A stretch of 64,000 nucleotides of DNA, taken from assembly GCA_036496605.1 (NCBI GenBank), contig DASXKV010000038.1, positions 1 through 64,000 of the forward strand. The letters are read 5' to 3'. Source of the DNA: Gemmatimonadaceae bacterium (GTDB taxonomy: Bacteria; Gemmatimonadota; Gemmatimonadetes; Gemmatimonadales; Gemmatimonadaceae). The translations under genes and the position numbers were made by a program. The notes below the pieces were generated by a model that was not told the DNA's origin, made no database searches, and saw nothing but the letters and a program-made list of their open reading frames with translations. Positions 21,364 through 31,928 of this stretch are shown here, one piece after another (within the stretch, counting starts at the first letter, position 1; each line of letters starts with the position of its first letter).

Positions 21364-22595
21364 GCGCCGCGCGAGAGTCGATCACGGCGACGATCGTCAC
21401 GCTGCCCGGCGACGGCGTCGGTCCCGAGGTTGTCGCCGCCGCGCAGATGGTCCTCGACGCGGTGGCGTCGTGCTACACGCACACCTTCATTGTCCGCGAG
21501 GCGTTGATCGGCGGCGTCGCGATCGATACGGTAGGCGAACCGTTGCCGAGCGAAACGCTCGACTTCTGTCGTGCGGCTGACGCCGTTCTCCTCGGCGCTG
21601 TCGGTGGCCCGCGCTGGGACGCGGCCGGGGCACGCGTGCGACCCGAGCAGGGATTGTTGGCCATCCGACGCGCGCTCGGACTCTATGCCAACCTGCGACC
21701 CGTCGTGCCGTATGCGTCGCTCGCGGGAATGTCTCCGTTTCGTCCGGAGCACCTGACGAGCGTCGACATTCTCGTCGTCCGCGAGCTCACCGGCGGTATC
21801 TATTTCGGCGAGAAGCGGCTCGAGCGCACGCCCACCGGTGATGGCGAGATCGCGACTGACGTCTGCACGTATACGACTGGCGAGATCGAGCGGATCGTTC
21901 GCATCGCCGCCGAGATGGCCCGCGCGCGGCGACGACGTCTCACCTCGGTCGACAAAGCCAACGTGCTCGAGACGTCGCGTCTCTGGCGGAGGACCGTCAC
22001 TCGCGTCATCGCGGACGAGTTCCCCGACGTTGCGGTCGAGCATATGCTCGTCGACACCTGCGCGATGCGTCTCGTTCAGCGCCCGTCGGACTTCGACGTC
22101 ATCGTGACGGAGAACATGTTTGGCGACATCCTCACCGACGAGGCGGCGGTCCTGTCCGGATCGATCGGTCTCCTGCCATCGGCATCACTCGGCGCGCCCG
22201 ACGGTAATGCTCGTCGCGCAGGGCTTTATGAACCAATACATGGCTCGGCGCCGGACATCGCGGGTCGCGGCATCGCGAACCCGATCGGGGCGATCTTGAG
22301 CGCGGCGCTGCTTCTTCGCTACTCGCTCGGCCTCGAAGAGGAGGCACGTGCAGTCGAGGCGGCGGTGCGCCTAACGGTCGAGGAAGGCGTTCTCACCCGC
22401 GACCTGACCACCGATGCCACGCGCGCCGCGACGACGCGCGCGGTGACCGAGCGGGTCGTCGCCAACGTCGTTCATCGGGCAGCGTCGGCCGGCGCTGCGC
22501 AACGCGCTCATTCAGATCGCTCCCCCACTCACGCAGTCAGCCCGGGTACGGATCAGCAGCGGGCAGGCTCGCCAGGTTTGTCACACTCGTCGTGA
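21360..22595 (+). CDS. leuB: 3-isopropylmalate dehydrogenase
   Basis: The enzyme oxidatively decarboxylates 3-isopropylmalate with NAD+. The start at 21360 (MSAARESITATIVTLPGDGVGPEV) overlaps the leuD stop as ATGA, giving 411 residues. Motifs: LPGDGVGPEV, the LRELTGG-like VVRELTGGIYFGEKR, DKANVLETSRLWR, and ENMFGDILTDEAAVLSGSIGLLPSASLG. LYEPIHGSAPDIAG forms the cofactor site. About 50 C-terminal residues after VVANVVHRA exceed the usual 350-360 and run over the 3-prime end of the convergent DUF2235 gene (59-bp overlap). The tail is Ser/Pro-rich and probably recent read-through. Confidence 0.95.
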   Translation: MSAARESITATIVTLPGDGVGPEVVAAAQMVLDAVASCYTHTFIVREALIGGVAIDTVGEPLPSETLDFCRAADAVLLGAVGGPRWDAAGARVRPEQGLLAIRRALGLYANLRPVVPYASLAGMSPFRPEHLTSVDILVVRELTGGIYFGEKRLERTPTGDGEIATDVCTYTTGEIERIVRIAAEMARARRRRLTSVDKANVLETSRLWRRTVTRVIADEFPDVAVEHMLVDTCAMRLVQRPSDFDVIVTENMFGDILTDEAAVLSGSIGLLPSASLGAPDGNARRAGLYEPIHGSAPDIAGRGIANPIGAILSAALLLRYSLGLEEEARAVEAAVRLTVEEGVLTRDLTTDATRAATTRAVTERVVANVVHRAASAGAAQRAHSDRSPTHAVSPGTDQQRAGSPGLSHSS

Positions 22596-23703
22596 ACAAC
22601 TCGCTGAGATTCGGCGGATGATAGTCGCCTCGGCGCAAGCGTTTGAGAACTGAGACGTCAATGAGCGCGCCCGTTTGCAATGTGCGACGTCGGCCCAGGC
22701 CGATCGCTGGCCGACGGCGCTTCGTCGTCGGATTGTAGACGAGCTTCGGGACGAACTCGGCGATCCACCACGCTCCCTCGAGCGATTCGTGTTGCGGCTC
22801 GGCCCATGGCTCAGCGGGTAACGGCGATCGTCCGCGCACGTGCGCAAGGCGATCCTCGTCAACGAGCAAACCGGCAGCGCGAGCCTCGTTGAGCATCCAC
22901 TCAAAGGTGACCCTCCAGAGACCGCCCTGGTCTTCGGGATATCCTCCTCCGACGTCGCTGTGGACGCCCGCAAACCAGATCTCCTTCGCATCCTGCCCGG
23001 GTTGTGGCGCGATCCGGTTCTGACGAAAGAACCAGCGCCGCTCGTCGATCGAGACCGCGTGCCGGACGACGCTGACGTTAGGCAACTTGGCCGTGAAGGG
23101 ATACGCGGGTGCATTCCACACCCAACCGACCGAAGAGACCGTGTCCCAGACACCGAGAAAGTGAATCGGGAAGCGTGCGTCCTCGCGGCCAGGAATCTGC
23201 CGCGCGAACGACTGCCGGAACGAGTTCAGCACGTGCCAGTACTCGTCGGATGAGCTCTGTCGCAGTGAGCCGAACAACCGCGTCACGTAAGGCAGGAGCT
23301 GGGTGTTGCCCTTCGGCAAGAGGCCGAGGGCGTAGAGCGCGGCGGCGAGCATGCGCGCCGTGTATGCGCCGCGGCTGAATCCGAAGAGAAAAACGCGATC
23401 GCCAGGCTCCCACACCTCCATGAGATGCGCGTACGCCGTGCTGACCTTGTCTTTGATGTCCGTCGCGAAGGCGAGGGCCATCCAGCGTGACACCGTTCGA
23501 CCGACGCGCGTGAGCACGCCTTGTTCGGGCAACGTGCCAACGCCTGGGTCGTAGTAGCACAGCTGCTGCGCCGGATCTCGCGCTACCAGTTCCGCGATCC
23601 GCACGACATTTGTGTTGCAGATGCCGAACTGGTTGTTCGTGCCATCGCAACAGATGATGATGTTCCTCGGCAAGAGTCGGTTACCGTTATTTGAGTATGC
23701 CAT
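22537..23703 (-). CDS. DUF2235 alpha/beta-hydrolase (Tle1-like phospholipase family)
   Basis: The 388-residue protein opens with NIIICCDGTNNQF, the family start. The nucleophile elbow GFSRGAYTARML puts the catalytic Ser at 110. The acidic residue is expected in GVWDTVSSVGW and the His in FAGVHSDVGGGYPE. DUF2235 includes the Tle1 phospholipase effectors of type VI secretion, but no secretion genes, immunity gene or signal peptide are present, so only a lipase/esterase-type hydrolase can be stated. A 7-bp perfect dyad lies 16 nt upstream. Its C-terminal codons overlap leuB. Confidence 0.85.
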   Translation of the reverse strand: MAYSNNGNRLLPRNIIICCDGTNNQFGICNTNVVRIAELVARDPAQQLCYYDPGVGTLPEQGVLTRVGRTVSRWMALAFATDIKDKVSTAYAHLMEVWEPGDRVFLFGFSRGAYTARMLAAALYALGLLPKGNTQLLPYVTRLFGSLRQSSSDEYWHVLNSFRQSFARQIPGREDARFPIHFLGVWDTVSSVGWVWNAPAYPFTAKLPNVSVVRHAVSIDERRWFFRQNRIAPQPGQDAKEIWFAGVHSDVGGGYPEDQGGLWRVTFEWMLNEARAAGLLVDEDRLAHVRGRSPLPAEPWAEPQHESLEGAWWIAEFVPKLVYNPTTKRRRPAIGLGRRRTLQTGALIDVSVLKRLRRGDYHPPNLSELFTTSVTNLASLPAADPYPG

Positions 23704-24339: not shown

Positions 24340-27000
24340 CTAGCGCGAGCCGTCGCTCACCATCGCTGCGACATCGCCTCTCCGTGGCAGCGCAGCGGAG
24401 GCGAGGTTCGCAATGGCAATCGGACGCAGCGAGAGCCAGGCGTCGCCGTCGTCACGAAGCCGTCCCGGCGTACTGACCTGGGAATAGAGCGAATCAGCCC
24501 GAGTGCGCGCCCCGGCGAGCCGTAGTGCATCGGCCTGGAGGAGCGCCAGGGCGCACTCGGAGCGGCCATAGAACGATTGCGCTCGCGTCCGATCCAGTTG
24601 ACGGATCGCCGAAGCGTAGTCGCCGTGTACGAACGCGTCCGCAGCATCGATAGTAATCTGTGCCAGTACGTGACTGCGCAGATTCCGCCCGGCATCCCGT
24701 TCGGCGACGATGGCGCGGAGAGTGGCGAGGCTCTCCTGATCACCGGCGGCCGCGGCCACGAATGCCGCGAGCTCCGCGAGCCGTGCCGTCGCCGGCGGCG
24801 ACAGATCGGTACTGTCGAGGCGCGTGATCGCCGCGCGGAGGAGCGCGCGGCCACGTTCGGGCGATCCGTTGACTGACGAGAGCTCGTTGCGCGCCTGAAA
24901 CAACTCGGCGCGAATCGCGAATTGCGCGTGTAACGTCGCTATGACCACCGCGCCGTAATTCGCCGCCTCGCGAACGCGGCCGAGCGAGAGCAGCAGCGCC
25001 TGACGCGTTGGTGCGAGCTCCATGTTGGGCCGACCGCGCACGACTGGGGGTGCGATGCTGTCGATGAGGCGTTGCAAGCCGGGCAAGTCGGCCCGCAGGA
25101 GGTACTCCGCGATGCGCACCTGCTGCTCGAGATAGGGCCACCGCGCGCCGGCGCCGCGCGCGAGCGCCAGCGCACGCGCCGTATCTCGCAGTGCCAACAG
25201 CGCGATCATGCGGTTCCGTATTTGAGGCGCGGCGGTCGAGTCGATACCCAGCGCGCTGTCGGCTGCCGCTGCCGCGTCCTCGAATGCACCGGTCGCCAAG
25301 TCCGTCCAGACCGCGCCCTCGTAGCCTAACGACTCTCGCGGATAGGCCGCGCGCAGCGCCCGCCAGTACCCGAGCGCGCTGTCGGGCCGATCGAGGACGA
25401 CCTGGGCATAGCGCGCACGAACGAGAAGGCGCTCGCGCACCGGAAGCCGCGCGCTCAGACGGTACGCTCGGCCGAGGTGCTCCTCGGCACGATGCTCCTG
25501 ATCGACGTACCAGAGCAGATCACCAACGAGATAATGCGCGAGCGCGAAATCACTGTCGTGCGCCACGGCCGCTTCGCCGTACGCGATCGCCGCCGGCCGG
25601 TCGAGCCGCGCGAGCGCGGCACGGGCGAGCGTGTACGCACGCAGCGCCTCGAGCGAGCTGGTGGTGATGGCCGGTAATGGCACGCCATTGTCCACGCGCG
25701 CGCGAGTCGCTCGGCCGCGAAGCTCCGATCCGATCTCGGCGAGCGCACGAACGACATCGTCGTTCGTGCGCGGCCTCGTCGAGAGCACCGCCATGGGAGT
25801 CGTCCGAGTCGGATCCAGCAAGCGCGCGACGATCTCGATGCTGCTACCGAGCGTCGCGATTCGACCGACGATCACCAACGAGGCACCATTTCGCAGTGCC
25901 ACATCGTCGGCCACCGCTTCCGTGAGTGGCACCGTGGGCGGCAGCTTCATGAGACGAAGCGTGCTGGCGACGACACCGTCATCCAGCACGATTACGTCGG
26001 GCGTTCGCTCGAGCTCCGCGCGCACCACCTCGCGCGCGGCGAGCGAGAGCAGCGTATCGGGACTCGCGATCTCACCCAACACGACGAGTCGCGCTGTCGC
26101 GCGACTTTCGACGCGTAACGCGCGGAGCACCATGCCGCCGCCAAACAAAAGCAGGGAAGCGGCGACGAGCGGCAGGCTGGCACGAAGACTCCGCCGCCAG
26201 CGCCTTTCGCGGTCCGGCGGCTCGTTCGGCGGCGCGGATTCGTCTTCGACCACCGCTGGTTTCTTGGCTGCCGGGAGTGCTCTCTCAGGGTTGGCCGGGC
26301 GCGCCAGCTCCGCCGCGAGTTGCGTGACTGACGGCTCGGCGTCGACGTCCAACTCTCCGCGGACGACCTGCGCGTAGAGCTGCGCGTGATGGATTGCGGC
26401 CGGCCGATCGCCGGCACGCGCGAGCGCATTCATCGCGGCCAAGGCGTGACGCGCGCTCAGCGGATCGAGCGCCGCGACGCGGAGGCGAAGCTCGGCCGCA
26501 GCCGAGAAATCGCCGCGATTCGTCGCCGCGACCGCCAGCATTTCTACTGCGTGCACGTGTTTTGTCGCGAGCTCGCGACGACGAGCCTCCGCCCAACGCT
26601 CGAACTCGGCCGCGCCCGAAACGAAAAAACCGTCGAGAAATGGCCCGGCGTAAACGGCGACGGCGCGCTCCATCGATCCCACCTGCAACGCGTCCTCGAA
26701 GTCGCCAACGTCACTCGTTAGATCATCGTCGAACACAAGATCATCTGCTCCACCGGTGATCACCGACGCCCCGAGGTCACGGCGAAGCTCGTAAACCAAT
26801 TGGGCGAGCGCATGGCGGCCGCGGTCCTGGTCGCGTTCGGGCCAGAGCAGCCCCAAGAGCCGGTCGCGACTGACGGGCTTCCGCCGCGCAGATGCGAGGA
26901 GCACGAGCAGCGCGAGACGACGGCGCTGCGTATTGCGGCCTTTCAACGGAATGCCGTCCCGCTCGAGCGTGACGGCACCGAACGTCCGGAGCCGGATCAT
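24340..27000 (-). CDS. BTAD-type transcriptional regulator with TM anchor and TPR-rich C-terminus
   Basis: The 886-residue protein starts with an OmpR/SARP-like DNA-binding domain (1-95; LRTFGAVTLERDGIPL, LLGLLWPERDQDRGRHALAQLVYELRR). A bacterial transcriptional activation domain follows at about 98-235. A Pro/charged linker leads to one TM helix at 272-293. The remaining 590 residues are Ala-rich helical repeats of TPR type with a preceding alpha/beta region (305-420). The topology places the DNA-binding half in the cytoplasm and the TPR half outside, a one-protein receptor-activator layout. It lies 144 nt downstream of the dockerin gene and has a promoter of its own. Confidence 0.85.
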   Translation of the reverse strand: MIRLRTFGAVTLERDGIPLKGRNTQRRRLALLVLLASARRKPVSRDRLLGLLWPERDQDRGRHALAQLVYELRRDLGASVITGGADDLVFDDDLTSDVGDFEDALQVGSMERAVAVYAGPFLDGFFVSGAAEFERWAEARRRELATKHVHAVEMLAVAATNRGDFSAAAELRLRVAALDPLSARHALAAMNALARAGDRPAAIHHAQLYAQVVRGELDVDAEPSVTQLAAELARPANPERALPAAKKPAVVEDESAPPNEPPDRERRWRRSLRASLPLVAASLLLFGGGMVLRALRVESRATARLVVLGEIASPDTLLSLAAREVVRAELERTPDVIVLDDGVVASTLRLMKLPPTVPLTEAVADDVALRNGASLVIVGRIATLGSSIEIVARLLDPTRTTPMAVLSTRPRTNDDVVRALAEIGSELRGRATRARVDNGVPLPAITTSSLEALRAYTLARAALARLDRPAAIAYGEAAVAHDSDFALAHYLVGDLLWYVDQEHRAEEHLGRAYRLSARLPVRERLLVRARYAQVVLDRPDSALGYWRALRAAYPRESLGYEGAVWTDLATGAFEDAAAAADSALGIDSTAAPQIRNRMIALLALRDTARALALARGAGARWPYLEQQVRIAEYLLRADLPGLQRLIDSIAPPVVRGRPNMELAPTRQALLLSLGRVREAANYGAVVIATLHAQFAIRAELFQARNELSSVNGSPERGRALLRAAITRLDSTDLSPPATARLAELAAFVAAAAGDQESLATLRAIVAERDAGRNLRSHVLAQITIDAADAFVHGDYASAIRQLDRTRAQSFYGRSECALALLQADALRLAGARTRADSLYSQVSTPGRLRDDGDAWLSLRPIAIANLASAALPRRGDVAAMVSDGSR

Positions 27001-27144: not shown

Positions 27145-29703
27145 CTAACGTGACGGCCGTACGCTGTGCATCGCGCCGGCGCAGCTTCCCTGCGTCGAAA
27201 GACCAACGGCCTGTCGCAGTACGACGAGTGCGTCGCCTGCATCGAGACCGCCGTTGCAGTTCGCGTCGCCGGCCGGAAGCACCTGCACCAGCGTGCCGAG
27301 GACGGTTTTGCCGACATCGAGGTTCGCCAGGGCTTCGGCGACGAGGAGCGCATCGTTCGCATCGACGACGCCATCGAGATTCAGGTCACCGCGCAGCACC
27401 GCGACCGGTGCGACGACGGGCGCGACCCAGATCCCGCGGCCATACGTCGCCGCAACGAGTCGCTGGTTCATCTTATCGTAGACGAGATCGTTTACTTCCA
27501 CGTTAGGCAAGCCGCCCGCAGCCGTCTGCCAGGACGTTCCAGCATCGCTGCTCAACCAGACACCGACATCCGTGCCCACCGCAATCGCGCTTGCGGAGCC
27601 CACGAAGGTGATCGCGTTCGCCGGCACATCTGGCAGCGCGCTCCCGCCGGTCCCACTGATCGCCGACCACGTCATGCCCGCATCGTGGGATTCCCACAGG
27701 TGAGGCGTGCCAAATCCGCCGACGGCCGCCACCAGATGCGCTGCATCTGCAGGATCCAGCGCGAGGCCGTTGACGAAACGATCTGGAAGTCCGGATCCGC
27801 CCGCCGCGAACGTGACGCCGCCATCGACGCTCAAGCGTACGAGTCCATCGCTCGTGCCGACATATATGGTATCCGGGTCCGTGCGCGCGATCGCGATGCG
27901 GGTGATGGCGCCCGCTCCCTTGGTGAGATCCGAGCTCGCTGACACCTGCTGCCAGGTGTACTCATCGGTCGTTCGATACAGACGCTGCGTGCCGAAGTAG
28001 AGTGTACTGGAAATGAGAGGGTGCATAACGAGCGGTGGAAGATACAGGGCACGGTCGCTCGGGTCGACACCATCGTTCACGGAACGAATGACACCGTTCC
28101 CGAAGCGAGCAATGCCCGGACCGGGAGCGAAACCATTCCATTGTGCCTCCAACCAGAGCACATCCCCTGCGGCGCTGAACGCCGTGTACCCTCCATCGCC
28201 TGACCACAGCCCGTCCCAGTTCGGCAGGCCGTTGGATTCGATGACGCCGTTGTCCTGCGTCCCACCAACCAGATATGCATTCAGATTCGGACTGATCGAT
28301 ACGCCGGGATAGAACATCGTGATCTCCAGTCCGGCGCTCCGACTCACCCAGCTGTCGCCGCCATCAGTCGAAATGAACACGCCTCCATCGGATGCGCCGA
28401 CCAGGCGCGAGTGGTCCGTGGGATCGATCCTGACGGCGTGCCAATCGACGTGCACCTCGGCTCCGATTCGGCTGAAGCTCGCGCCGCCATCGGTCGAGCG
28501 AAACAGCCGCTCACCGCCAAGGTAGATTCGATTTGCATCCGTCGGGTCGACGGTTATCAGCAGGTCGTAGCCAGTCTGTTTTCCGATGTCGCCGCGCGGA
28601 TCATCCGTGCGCAACCCCGCTGCGACGAGCTTCGTCCACTGTCCGTTTGCATCGTTCCACCTCCACAGCCCCTCGAACTCGCCGATGCTGCCGTCGTAAT
28701 TGCCGACGGCGACCCACACCTGGTCGGGAGCGGCCGCCGACGTCGCCAACTGCACGCGCTCGATGCGGTCGCTCGTTAGGCCGGATGGCAGCGGGAGCAG
28801 CGTCCACGTGGCGCCCTTGTCCGCCGAGCGAAGCAACCCACCCTGTGACACGGTGCTCGTGCTCGCTCCGGCGAAGAGGATGTTGGGGTCGCGGGCGCTT
28901 GCCACGAGGCTGACTGTCCAACCGGTGTTGCTCAGTGACCAGCTCTGGCCGCTATCCGTCGAGCGAAAGATGCCGGTCGTTGTCGCCACCAACAGGACGG
29001 TGCTGCTCGTGGTGCCCGCGGTTGTGGGGTCGACGTACACGGCGCCCGTGGCGGAATAGTAGACGCCGGCATCCGGTCCGAGTTCAGCCGCCCCGAAGAG
29101 CTGCCAGCTTCTCCCGCCATCGACGGATCGCAGCATGCCGCAGCCGAACGATTCGTCATTCAACTCGCCCGTTCCCGCGTACACGATGTCGGGATTCCTG
29201 GGATCGACGGCGATGCCGCCGATGTTGAGTGAACACTGATCATCCGTGAGTGGTGCCCAGGTGCTTCCGCCGTCGCCGGTCTTCCAGACGCCACCGCCGG
29301 CAGAGCCCGCGTAGACCGTGTTGCGATTCGAGGGATCGATCGCCACGTCGGCGACGCGGCCGGCGTCGAGCTGCGGAGCGGAGAGGTAGTAGTTCGTCCG
29401 CTGGAGGATGGACCACGGTCCTTCCGAGGTCCACTGGGCGCCCGTGGCCAGCACGTCCGCCGAAATGCGCGGTGCGAGCGTCCGTGATGAGCTGCGCCGG
29501 AGTCGCATGATCTCCCGCAAGCCGCTGCTTGGGATTTGTTGATGCGGATAGGCGCGCTGCAGGCGATGATAGCGCCGGCGGGCAGCGACGTCTTCCTCGC
29601 GGCGTTGCGCCGCAACGGCGTGGCTGACGACGCCGAGCATCATCGCGAGCATGAATTGACGTGTGAGCGATCGCTGAATCTTCACTGTTATCCTCGCCGT
29701 CAT
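27145..29703 (-). CDS. Secreted Asp-box (BNR) beta-propeller protein with C-terminal dockerin
   Basis: The 852-residue protein has an N-terminal signal peptide (hydrophobic FMLAMMLGVVSHAVA, then AQ). It carries nine Asp-box motifs of the S-x-D-x-G-x-[ST]-[WF] kind, for example KTGDGGSTW, RSVDGGRSW, ISTDGGDSW and LSSDAGTSW, giving a sortilin/sialidase-like multi-bladed propeller. Residues 773-832 contain two calcium-binding dockerin loops: DLNLDGVVDANDALLVAEAL and DANCNGGLDAGDALVVLRQA, with Asp/Asn at positions 1, 3, 5, 9 and 12. Sialidase catalytic residues were not identified, so binding rather than hydrolysis is likely. The start overlaps the upstream lipoprotein gene as ATGA. Confidence 0.85.
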   Translation of the reverse strand: MTARITVKIQRSLTRQFMLAMMLGVVSHAVAAQRREEDVAARRRYHRLQRAYPHQQIPSSGLREIMRLRRSSSRTLAPRISADVLATGAQWTSEGPWSILQRTNYYLSAPQLDAGRVADVAIDPSNRNTVYAGSAGGGVWKTGDGGSTWAPLTDDQCSLNIGGIAVDPRNPDIVYAGTGELNDESFGCGMLRSVDGGRSWQLFGAAELGPDAGVYYSATGAVYVDPTTAGTTSSTVLLVATTTGIFRSTDSGQSWSLSNTGWTVSLVASARDPNILFAGASTSTVSQGGLLRSADKGATWTLLPLPSGLTSDRIERVQLATSAAAPDQVWVAVGNYDGSIGEFEGLWRWNDANGQWTKLVAAGLRTDDPRGDIGKQTGYDLLITVDPTDANRIYLGGERLFRSTDGGASFSRIGAEVHVDWHAVRIDPTDHSRLVGASDGGVFISTDGGDSWVSRSAGLEITMFYPGVSISPNLNAYLVGGTQDNGVIESNGLPNWDGLWSGDGGYTAFSAAGDVLWLEAQWNGFAPGPGIARFGNGVIRSVNDGVDPSDRALYLPPLVMHPLISSTLYFGTQRLYRTTDEYTWQQVSASSDLTKGAGAITRIAIARTDPDTIYVGTSDGLVRLSVDGGVTFAAGGSGLPDRFVNGLALDPADAAHLVAAVGGFGTPHLWESHDAGMTWSAISGTGGSALPDVPANAITFVGSASAIAVGTDVGVWLSSDAGTSWQTAAGGLPNVEVNDLVYDKMNQRLVAATYGRGIWVAPVVAPVAVLRGDLNLDGVVDANDALLVAEALANLDVGKTVLGTLVQVLPAGDANCNGGLDAGDALVVLRQAVGLSTQGSCAGAMHSVRPSR

Positions 29704-30236
29704 CGCACCGTGAACCCGGTGCTCGCACCAGCCGATCGCAGTCGCGAGCGGAGATCCTCGTGTTGCGCGGAGTGAAGCTCACTGAACGACAGCTGCAGCC
29801 CATCGAGCGCCGCCGCGCCGCGCGCGGTGCGTACCTGCCACGACAGGCGAAAGAGATCGGCGCTCGCGAGTCCGCCGACGGCAAAGCCGGCGACGCGCAC
29901 GCTTGGACCGACGGCATTGCTGACGCGCGTGGCCTTGTCGTCGAGCGGGAGCTCGCCGGCAAAGCGAAGCGCGAGCGTGTCGTAGGTCACGCGAGCCGTG
30001 TAGCTCGCGACCCGTGGGGTGCCGTTAGGCGCGCCAACCAGCCGCGCTGTGACGCTGACGACCGAACCCATGCGAGGCGCGCTGTCCGAGAGCATGAGAA
30101 CCACACCGACGTCTCGTCCCGACAACGTCGATTCCGGGAGGGCGCGTCGCTCGGGCTCGAGGCAGGACAGAGCGAGAACGGCCAAGAGTACGGCGCCCAG
30201 TCGCATCGGCCGCGCGAGGCGGTGACGAGGCATCAT
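29700..30236 (-). CDS. Small lipoprotein with a cohesin-like domain
   Basis: The 178-residue product has a signal sequence ending LAVLALSC, a plausible lipobox. The mature region follows the cohesin layout: MGSVVSVTARLVG (first strand pair), VASYTARVTYDTLALRFAGEL (the Y-D-x-x-x-L element), and later LFRLSWQVRT (the L-F-x-L-x-F-x-V element). Sequence identity to canonical cohesins would be low, so this is a fold-level inference. The gene overlaps both neighbours by 4 nt, between another cohesin-like lipoprotein and a dockerin protein. This strongly supports a docking role. Confidence 0.6.
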   Translation of the reverse strand: MMPRHRLARPMRLGAVLLAVLALSCLEPERRALPESTLSGRDVGVVLMLSDSAPRMGSVVSVTARLVGAPNGTPRVASYTARVTYDTLALRFAGELPLDDKATRVSNAVGPSVRVAGFAVGGLASADLFRLSWQVRTARGAAALDGLQLSFSELHSAQHEDLRSRLRSAGASTGFTVR

Positions 30237-31621
30237 TTGATGACCAGTGGATAATGAGTGGATGTCGTTTGCGAGAGGAGCGACGATTCATCGAGCGCGA
30301 CGACGTCGAGAGGGACAACGAACAACCCACCGGCGCCGCCAGCCGGGCCGAGGTCGGTGCGCGCGACGAGACGGAATGTGATGAGCTCCTCGCTCCCGCT
30401 CAGGCCATTGGCGTATGCGGCCGTGAGCCTAACGATTGAGCTCGTGTAGACCTCCGCGCCGCTGGCCGTGACGCCGGACCCCACGGAGATGGCATCGAGG
30501 AAGGTCGCAACACCCGTGGATTTCGGGGTCAGGTCGCCCGACCAGCTGACGAGAATGCTCGCCGCGCCCACGGTCGAAGTGCGGCTGTCCATCACCACGG
30601 TGACGGAGATGGTATCGCCCGCATGCCAGTTGGTGCGCGACAGGGTAGTGTAGAGCACCGGCCCGTTAGGCTTCGTGACTTGCACCCAGATCGAATCGGC
30701 GACGCCCGCAGTGGCGGTCGCGACGACCCAGGCCGCGCCCTCCGCGACGCCGGTGACCGTTCCGTGTGCGTCGACGCTCGCTACACTTGGCGCACGGGTC
30801 GCGTACGTAATCGCCACGCCACTCAGCGCCGCGCCCGTGCTGTCTCGCACCGCCGTTGTCGGAGCGACTGTCGCGTTAGGCGAGAGGAGATAGACCTTTC
30901 CCGCCGGCGACTCGTAGGAGATTGACGCTGGAATGGCGAGCGGCGGAGCCACGTTCAGCGCCGCCGACGTCGCCGCGGCGACGGCCGTCGCCGTGAACGT
31001 CAACGTCACCGGGCCCGATCCCGTGAGGCTCAGGTCGACGAAAGTCGCGACGCCCGCAACCGCGGTCACTGAGAGCGATCCGGAAAGACTCGCACTGCCG
31101 CTGCTCACGGCAGCAGTCACACTTGTCGTCGACGACGTGACGAGGTTGCCCGCCTGGTCTCTCACCTCGACCACGGGTTGTGTCGTGAGAGCTGCTTTCG
31201 ACACCGCGCCGGCGGGCTGCGTTCGGATCGCGAGCTGCGTCGCCGCGCCGGGCGTCACGGTGACCGTAACGGAAGAGGAGGAAACGCTACCGGCGGATGC
31301 GGCAATCCCGGACGTTCCAGTCCGCGCACCAGTGACCCTTCCCGATTGCTCGATGATTCCGACGGTCGGATCCGACGACATCCACGTCACGGTCAGCCCA
31401 GGAATCGAGTTTCCGTCGCGGTTGCGGACGTCTGCCGAAAACGACACCGAGCTCCCCGAGGCGATGGTTTGCGACGTGGACGGTGTGATGACGACCGTCG
31501 CCGGTGTCGTGTCGGGCGCGGTGCCGTGATCGCCCCCCGAGCCTCCACAACCTCCAACCGCCAGCAGTCCAATGGCGAACAGGCCAATGGGACAACGCGC
31601 GCGTGCTGACTGCCTTCGCAT
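30233..31621 (-). CDS. Lipoprotein with Ig-like (Big) domains and a C-terminal cohesin-like domain
   Basis: The start at 31621 is chosen because GGAG lies 8 nt upstream; ATG 31627 and GTG 31633 are alternatives. The 462-residue product has a lipobox (LLAVGGC) and a Gly/Asp-rich spacer. A BIG2-type repeat follows (ATVVITPSTSQTIASGSSVSF, then VTWMSSDPTVGIIEQSGRVTG). Next come a central Ig-like module and a second BIG2-type repeat ending GVAEGAAWVVATA. The last 140 residues resemble cohesin (GDTISVTVVMDSRT, ILVSWSGDLTPKS, ELITFRLVART). It is probably an outer-membrane scaffold and the first gene of the cluster. Confidence 0.65.
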   Translation of the reverse strand: MRRQSARARCPIGLFAIGLLAVGGCGGSGGDHGTAPDTTPATVVITPSTSQTIASGSSVSFSADVRNRDGNSIPGLTVTWMSSDPTVGIIEQSGRVTGARTGTSGIAASAGSVSSSSVTVTVTPGAATQLAIRTQPAGAVSKAALTTQPVVEVRDQAGNLVTSSTTSVTAAVSSGSASLSGSLSVTAVAGVATFVDLSLTGSGPVTLTFTATAVAAATSAALNVAPPLAIPASISYESPAGKVYLLSPNATVAPTTAVRDSTGAALSGVAITYATRAPSVASVDAHGTVTGVAEGAAWVVATATAGVADSIWVQVTKPNGPVLYTTLSRTNWHAGDTISVTVVMDSRTSTVGAASILVSWSGDLTPKSTGVATFLDAISVGSGVTASGAEVYTSSIVRLTAAYANGLSGSEELITFRLVARTDLGPAGGAGGLFVVPLDVVALDESSLLSQTTSTHYPLVIK

Positions 31622-31928
31622 GCGCATCTCCACTCGTGTGATCCAACGCGCAGCTCGCCACGAGCGACCCGCGGCCGAGCTGAATCCTGCGACACGAGCA
31701 TAGGCATCCGGAGTCAGCCGCCGATCAGATCACGATCAGTTGGCGCGTATTAATGAGCGTCATCGTGGCCAGCACTCGGACTCGCGCACCGCGAGGCGGT
31801 GTCGCCGAACGACTGTCGGAGCCTCCACTGACGCTCAACTGATTGCCATCTGATCTGCTCGCGCGATGATGTGTGTTGCGTGATGCGCCCGATTAGCACC
31901 CTGACCCGCATCGCTACCGCACATACCC
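31622..31928. other. Divergent intergenic region between the cohesin-like cluster and the exported coiled-coil gene
   Basis: No gene is supported in this stretch, which should hold both divergent promoters. A small hairpin (CACCGC-GA-GGCGGTG, near 31787-31801) and a cluster of GATC-containing half-sites near 31725-31740 are visible. No clear TTGACA/TATAAT pair was found. Confidence 0.4.

Follow-up and report, generated by a model that had tools for sequence, protein, structure and literature searches.

A 64,000-nucleotide stretch of contig DASXKV010000038.1 (assembly GCA_036496605.1, from a soil-type Gemmatimonadaceae bacterium), hereafter the window and the reference for all coordinates, encodes three consecutive minus-strand genes, P1, P2 and P3, which probably form a non-cellulosomal cohesin-dockerin display cassette in which lipoprotein-anchored cohesins hold the propeller protein P3 by its dockerin. 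This reading builds on features established here, namely the gene order, the lipoprotein and export signals, the identity of the cohesin and dockerin domains, and the genetic linkage of cohesin with dockerin genes. The genes and their domains are located as follows.

30233-31621, minus strand: P1, an open reading frame (ORF) for a predicted lipoprotein with two Big_2-type immunoglobulin (Ig)-like domains and a C-terminal cohesin; homologues in the family span the C-terminus.
30236-30670, minus strand: P1C, the predicted C-terminal cohesin domain of P1, based on AlphaFold, Foldseek, the VIA aligner and a profile match to P2.
29700-30236, minus strand: P2, a predicted small lipoprotein consisting essentially of a single cohesin domain; mature part at 29703-30164.
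27145-29703, minus strand: P3, a predicted secreted Asp-box beta-propeller protein with a C-terminal type I dockerin.
27406-29436, minus strand: propeller region of P3, about residues 90-766.
27196-27396, minus strand: predicted dockerin of P3, about residues 770-836; the genome scan places the dockerin at 27214-27390.
27352-27387, minus strand: putative dockerin calcium loop 1 of P3, DLNLDGVVDAND, residues 773-784.
27232-27267, minus strand: putative dockerin calcium loop 2 of P3, DANCNGGLDAGD, residues 813-824.

The genes are arranged in the order P1-P2-P3 with a 4-nt ATGA overlap at both the P1/P2 and the P2/P3 junction, and because they are consecutive and overlapping in this way they presumably constitute one transcription unit. 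P1 has two alternative starts, an in-frame GTG at 31633 and an ATG at 31627.

P1 and P2 are predicted Gram-negative lipoproteins, each with a signal peptide ending in a lipobox cysteine. The signal of P1 contains a lipobox-type AVGGC motif read from the sequence, and the lipobox cysteine of P2 is invariant in an alignment of 25/25 relatives. P1 furthermore contains two stretches matching Big_2 in Pfam (E 3.4e-8). Compared singly with the Pfam Cohesin family (PF00963), P2 of the window gives a weak match (E 0.071) and P1C gives none; a search of the whole genome with this family likewise returned no match, which reflects the low sensitivity of the search and not the absence of cohesins. Nevertheless, Cohesin is matched at E up to 1 by 7 of 14 P2 orthologues (best 4.9e-7) and by 2 of 16 P1-type C-terminal domains (best 8.2e-11), and a profile comparison (hhalign, E 1.7e-9) shows P1C and P2 to be homologues. 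AlphaFold models built from alignments of 25 sequences for P2 (pLDDT 83.8, pTM 0.79) and 24 sequences for P1C (pLDDT 88.2, pTM 0.82) were compared with solved structures. In the Foldseek search of the PDB, ranks 1-24 for the P2 model are all cohesins or cohesin-like modules, with 2xdh at the top (E 6.3e-6), which is also the top match of the P1C model (E 6.4e-8). The VIA aligner gave 2jh2, a cohesin-like module of C. perfringens, as the best match of P2 (Z 13.4) and 2xdh, a non-cellulosomal Archaeoglobus cohesin, as that of P1C (Z 15.3). A few pilins also occur among the matches of the P1C model, ranked below the best cohesins. The CLIPPER isopeptide domain (9ifr; Foldseek rank 10, Z 12.9) was considered for P1C and rejected, since cohesins rank higher and since P2 and P1C show genetic linkage to dockerins. 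Identity of the window's cohesin domains to most solved cohesins is only about 10-18%. Despite the weak matches of the window proteins alone, the orthologue matches and the predicted structures make the assignment secure, and P1C and P2 are both modelled as cohesins with the nine-stranded cohesin beta-sandwich.

The C-terminus of P3 is predicted to be a type I dockerin (PF00404) with two 12-residue calcium loops. The window protein alone matches Dockerin_1 weakly (hmmscan, E 0.0056; 17.3 bits versus 22.9), and the genome scan, which counts neighbours in frame, gave a Dockerin_1 score of 23.6 bits at P3. Each of the 15 P3 proteins in the alignment hits Dockerin_1 (best 6.1e-11), and the P3 profile matches solved dockerins. 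In both loops, all 15 orthologues have Asp at positions 1 and 12, with D, N or S at positions 3 and 5; in loop 2, positions 1, 3 and 12 are invariant in the same set. The dockerin assignment is secure because all 15 orthologues match the family with invariant loop positions 1 and 12. Two cysteines of P3, C816 within loop 2 and C841 beyond it (27181-27258), are invariant across the orthologues in alignment A3, which suggests a disulfide-locked dockerin. In its own genome, P3 is the sole protein with a convincing two-repeat dockerin. Two further matches to the dockerin model were set aside: at C30, a 1064-aa protein that looks like a TonB receptor has DINGDGKIDAND as the one loop motif found, and C2 is a one-loop protein of 322-349 aa. 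P2 is likewise the one P2-like gene of this genome, with no further strong candidate.

The remainder of P3 is predicted to be an Asp-box (BNR/Vps10) propeller exported by a signal with an Ala-X-Ala type end (AVA/AQ). In P3, the strict Asp-box pattern [ST]-x-D-x-G-x-x-[WF] occurs exactly nine times, and a slightly looser pattern recovered the same nine boxes, versus 0.28 expected and a maximum of 3 in 2000 shuffles. Pfam matches are Sortilin-Vps10 (E 1.2e-19) and BNR (E 1.3e-8), and orthologues align over the full length with 36-46% identity. Vps10-like propellers are abundant in Gemmatimonadota, most genomes encoding several to more than 10 P3 homologues at E<1e-20.

Whether this propeller might be an enzyme bears on the nature of the whole operon. 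That P3 is a GH74- or sialidase-type glycoside hydrolase (GH), and the operon a minimal cellulosome-like degradation unit, we regard as very improbable, although the best solved matches of the P3 profile (alignment A3) are GH74 xyloglucanases (6p2m, E 5.5e-29), with sortilin more distant, and P3 reaches 131.9 of 175 bits, below the cut-off, against an NCBIfam family named glycosylhydrolase. The single catalytic position aligned, located by comparing the wild-type ARADIGG of 2cn2 with ARAAIGG of the mutant 2cn3, and which we take to be D70 of C. thermocellum Xgh74A, is non-acidic in the P3 profile and is Asp in 0/15 orthologues. Moreover, GH74 enzymes and sortilin have the Asp-box propeller fold in common and not the chemistry, and the operon encodes no other hydrolase. 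P3 was therefore rejected as a GH74 enzyme and, because the catalytic Asp is absent from all 15 orthologues, its propeller is most likely a binding platform rather than a glycosidase.

A preliminary description of this DNA, made from the sequence alone, had listed three genes overlapping by 4 nt each, namely a lipoprotein with Ig-like repeats and a cohesin-like end, a small lipoprotein with a cohesin-like domain and a secreted nine-Asp-box propeller ending in two dockerin calcium loops, and had noted the lack of a glycoside hydrolase. The ORF positions and junctions, the Big_2 matches and lipobox of P1, the conserved cysteine of P2, the nine strict boxes with their signal, the two loops of the dockerin family and the missing GH74 Asp all agree with it, and the structure prediction it had proposed placed solved cohesins above all other folds, so the outcome it had named as a refutation, folds clearly unlike cohesins, did not arise.

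The three genes occur in the same order in about 14 genomes of Gemmatimonadaceae, so that the set, for which the preliminary description had advised a search elsewhere, recurs within the family. The relatives were found with the P3 alignment; a contig scan with the single P2 sequence found none, P2 being too divergent. The named relatives are metagenome-assembled genomes of Gemmatimonadaceae. Most relatives carry a fourth gene between P2 and P3, PX, which encodes a small lipoprotein whose homology marks it as an IPT/TIG domain (TIG E 3.2e-8 for the Zhengella copy) and is absent from the window operon. The three-gene form described earlier thus holds for the window, but the typical operon has four genes. 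PX, recorded in L032-L046 (between P2 and P3) and in L049-L098, is also found upstream of several dockerin-less P3 homologues. At one locus, L045 (5808-10125), P2 and PX are fused, and P3 carries an Ig and cohesin-like insert directly before its dockerin. Contig CALQGY020000011.1 (L095) is titled Candidatus Kuenenia stuttgartiensis, carries the Gemmatimonadaceae operon and nests among Gemmatimonadota in the tree; it is probably a mis-binned or mislabelled contig of a metagenome-assembled genome.

A survey of P3 homologues comprised 52 loci from 84,980 species genomes. Dockerins are present in 23 homologues, and at the 22 of these loci with upstream sequence a P1 cohesin precedes the propeller in every case and P2 in 21. 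None of the 28 dockerin-less homologues (from Longimicrobiales and others; two end before the C-terminus) is accompanied by P1 or P2. Mapped onto a propeller-region tree, the dockerin shows one change (support 96), its gain in a single clade. The co-occurrence is thus a single inherited event for the propeller operon, an explanation that does not hold for the other cassettes, and because the P3 operons count as one event, the independence of the cohesin-dockerin linkage rests on about eight other cassettes of the family and on those of other families.

Family-wide, cohesin genes track dockerin genes. Across 99 Gemmatimonadaceae genomes, 30 of 32 strong P2-like matches lie within 5 kb of a dockerin, and one of the two exceptions has a dockerin-like loop in the same protein. 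Cohesin and dockerin co-occur in 19 of these genomes, 1 has the cohesin only, 5 the dockerin only and 74 neither. In the approximately eight family cassettes with other cargo, that cargo is an RCC1 propeller, a protein that matches peptidases faintly or an uncharacterised protein. Two genomes that also have the propeller operon contain a second cassette (L047:7552-13323 and L129:8534-14488) that combines several cohesin-like genes with a gene for a dockerin-tailed protein; in L129 this protein shows weak matches to reprolysin-type metallopeptidases. Outside the family, eight P2-like loci come from other families or classes. At five of them (L120, L122, L123, L125 and L126) a dockerin lies in the P2-like protein itself or no more than a few kb away, and the remaining three genes lie near a contig end. 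The dockerin cargo of these lineages includes an M6 peptidase, a subtilase and beta-helix proteins. Locus L120 (1-11940) contains four tandem genes with a dockerin near the N-terminus, preceded in three of the four by a detectable cohesin-like domain, and a stand-alone P2-like gene beside them, with beta-helix and PD40 propeller cargo; the tandem genes are a possible self-chaining cohesin-dockerin array.

As a mechanism for the display cassette, we propose that P1 and P2 would be exported and fixed by a lipid anchor, most likely to the outer membrane, with the P1 cohesin held at the tip of an Ig-like stalk and that of P2 near the membrane. After export, P3 would be a soluble propeller whose C-terminal dockerin would be caught by the cohesin of P1 or P2. 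The dockerin would fold around two calcium ions, and its capture would be calcium-dependent as in known pairs, so that the propeller would stay at the cell and act there as a platform for binding or processing. The binding of P3 to P1 or P2, its dependence on calcium, the location on the outer face, the ligand of the propeller and the route of P3 across the outer membrane are the parts of this scheme that we infer. The display reading is favoured because both partner domains have the cohesin fold, several of their orthologues match Pfam Cohesin, the dockerin is found in 15/15 orthologues and the linkage is repeated with unrelated cargo. Several observations weigh against it. The tie of P1 and P2 to the dockerin is one of genetic linkage, from which binding is deduced; the window's own P1 end lacks a Pfam cohesin match and that of P2 is marginal; L048/L099 lacks P2; and the single dockerin change on the propeller tree reduces many operons to one evolutionary event. 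In addition, the cohesin-like domain directly before a dockerin in one chain at L045, L047 and L120 would allow binding within or between cargo molecules.

The same domains could also serve in a different place. The cohesins and dockerin may be genuine and the lipoproteins and propeller form a periplasmic envelope complex that is not surface-exposed, which we consider unlikely but the more serious of the two remaining alternatives. All proteins carry Sec-type or lipoprotein signals only, the operon contains no dedicated outer-membrane exporter, and the match of P3 to the PorZ family of the type IX secretion system (T9SS) is faint (E 1.4e-5) and far under the cut-off. However, P1 has Big_2 Ig-like domains, which are typical of surface proteins, and the dockerin cargo outside the family consists of secreted peptidases and beta-helix proteins. 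It is rather improbable that the P3 dockerin, instead of binding P1 or P2 of its own cell, binds the cohesin of another protein or is a calcium-stabilised tail, the cohesin domains being adhesive Ig-like modules. The low identity to most solved cohesins noted above, which sets these domains far in sequence from biochemically proven pairs, would fit such a role, as would animal TMEM132, which has cohesin and Ig domains and no detectable dockerin partner in vertebrates (PMC6030884). Yet the cohesin genes are near-exclusively linked to dockerin genes with several cargo types, and the window genome has neither another two-repeat dockerin nor a second P2-like gene.

That cohesins and dockerins occur outside cellulosomes is established, PMC8542988 and PMC9012536 citing Peer et al. 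(2009) on this point, in agreement with the preliminary description, which had called such modules known. Compared with clostridial cellulosomes, the window shares the two folds, an exported protein that ends in a type I dockerin and a cell-anchored cohesin, but has proteins with a single cohesin each in place of a scaffoldin array, a lipid anchor instead of a surface-layer homology (SLH) or sortase anchor, and no carbohydrate-binding module (CBM), cellulase or other glycoside hydrolase. With no multi-cohesin scaffoldin, P1 and P2 having one cohesin each, and no GH or CBM detected by Pfam in the three genes, the earlier view that a cellulosomal role is unlikely is upheld. Of the "minimal scaffold" proposed at the same time, the two lipid-anchored cohesin proteins stand, but with one cohesin each they would be anchors and not scaffoldins. 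ScaG of Ruminococcus flavefaciens (4n2o, 4wkz) resembles P2 as an autonomous, near-single-cohesin protein (structural match Z about 10-12); it is part of a cellulosome and, to our knowledge, neither carries a Gram-negative lipoprotein signal nor lies in an operon with a propeller.

Archaeoglobus fulgidus reportedly has non-cellulosomal cohesin and dockerin modules (structure 2xdh; Bayer 1999; Voronov-Goldman 2011). It shares with the window a single non-cellulosomal cohesin, 2xdh being the best Foldseek match of both P2 and P1C, but is an archaeon, and we know of no propeller cargo or lipoprotein-anchored cohesin pair in it. Archaeal cohesin-dockerin pairs have been reported to form specific, strong bonds (PMC9012536). 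Cloacimonadota and anaerobic methanotrophic (ANME) archaea encode dockerin-bearing peptidases or transporters together with multi-cohesin scaffoldins (PMC8542988, PMC9012536). They resemble the present case in carrying dockerins on non-cellulase cargo in non-cellulolytic lineages, and their peptidase cargo resembles that of related Gemmatimonadota, but their cohesin proteins are large and scaffoldin-like, whereas those of the window are small single-domain lipoproteins encoded beside the presumed cargo. P3 itself belongs to the sortilin/Vps10-like propellers of Gemmatimonadota, nearly all others of which lack a dockerin. Full-text searches of the open-access literature returned no description of a cohesin-dockerin system in Gemmatimonadota, a scope that leaves the survey of Peer et al. 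(2009) outside, and within it the earlier remark that the operon appears undescribed holds. What is new is the combination of single-cohesin lipoproteins with one dockerin-bearing propeller beside them and no glycoside hydrolase, since cohesins and dockerins outside cellulosomes were already known.

Directly downstream of the operon, 24340-27000 on the minus strand encodes a SARP/BTAD-type transcriptional regulator with a long C-terminal half, which was not found beside the operon in relatives. At 22537-23703, also on the minus strand, lies a gene for a protein with a Tle1-like phospholipase domain of the type VI secretion system (Pfam E 6.1e-73), and no adjoining secretion genes were noted.

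Cohesin-dockerin pairs are among the strongest protein-protein contacts known, and their non-cellulosomal use has long been noted and rarely explained, partly since partners are hard to match. Because single cohesins and a single dockerin adjoin in one family-conserved operon, the partners can be assigned at once, and three small proteins suffice to test the pairing. The same arrangement already exists in engineered form, the Archaeoglobus pair having served to attach proteins to E. coli (PMC9705933), and Gemmatimonadota pairs could supply new orthogonal connectors. More tentatively, and with somewhat less than even confidence, we propose that Gemmatimonadota may run a phylum-specific, cargo-swapping mode of surface attachment, in which single-cohesin lipoproteins are encoded beside dockerin-tailed propellers, M6 and S8 peptidases, RCC1 and beta-helix proteins, each cargo has its own anchor, and cohesin-dockerin didomain proteins such as those of L120 could chain into non-cellulosomal assemblies. 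Our findings suggest that a "cellulosome glue" fastens secreted peptidases and propellers to the envelope in a poorly studied, mostly uncultured Gram-negative phylum.

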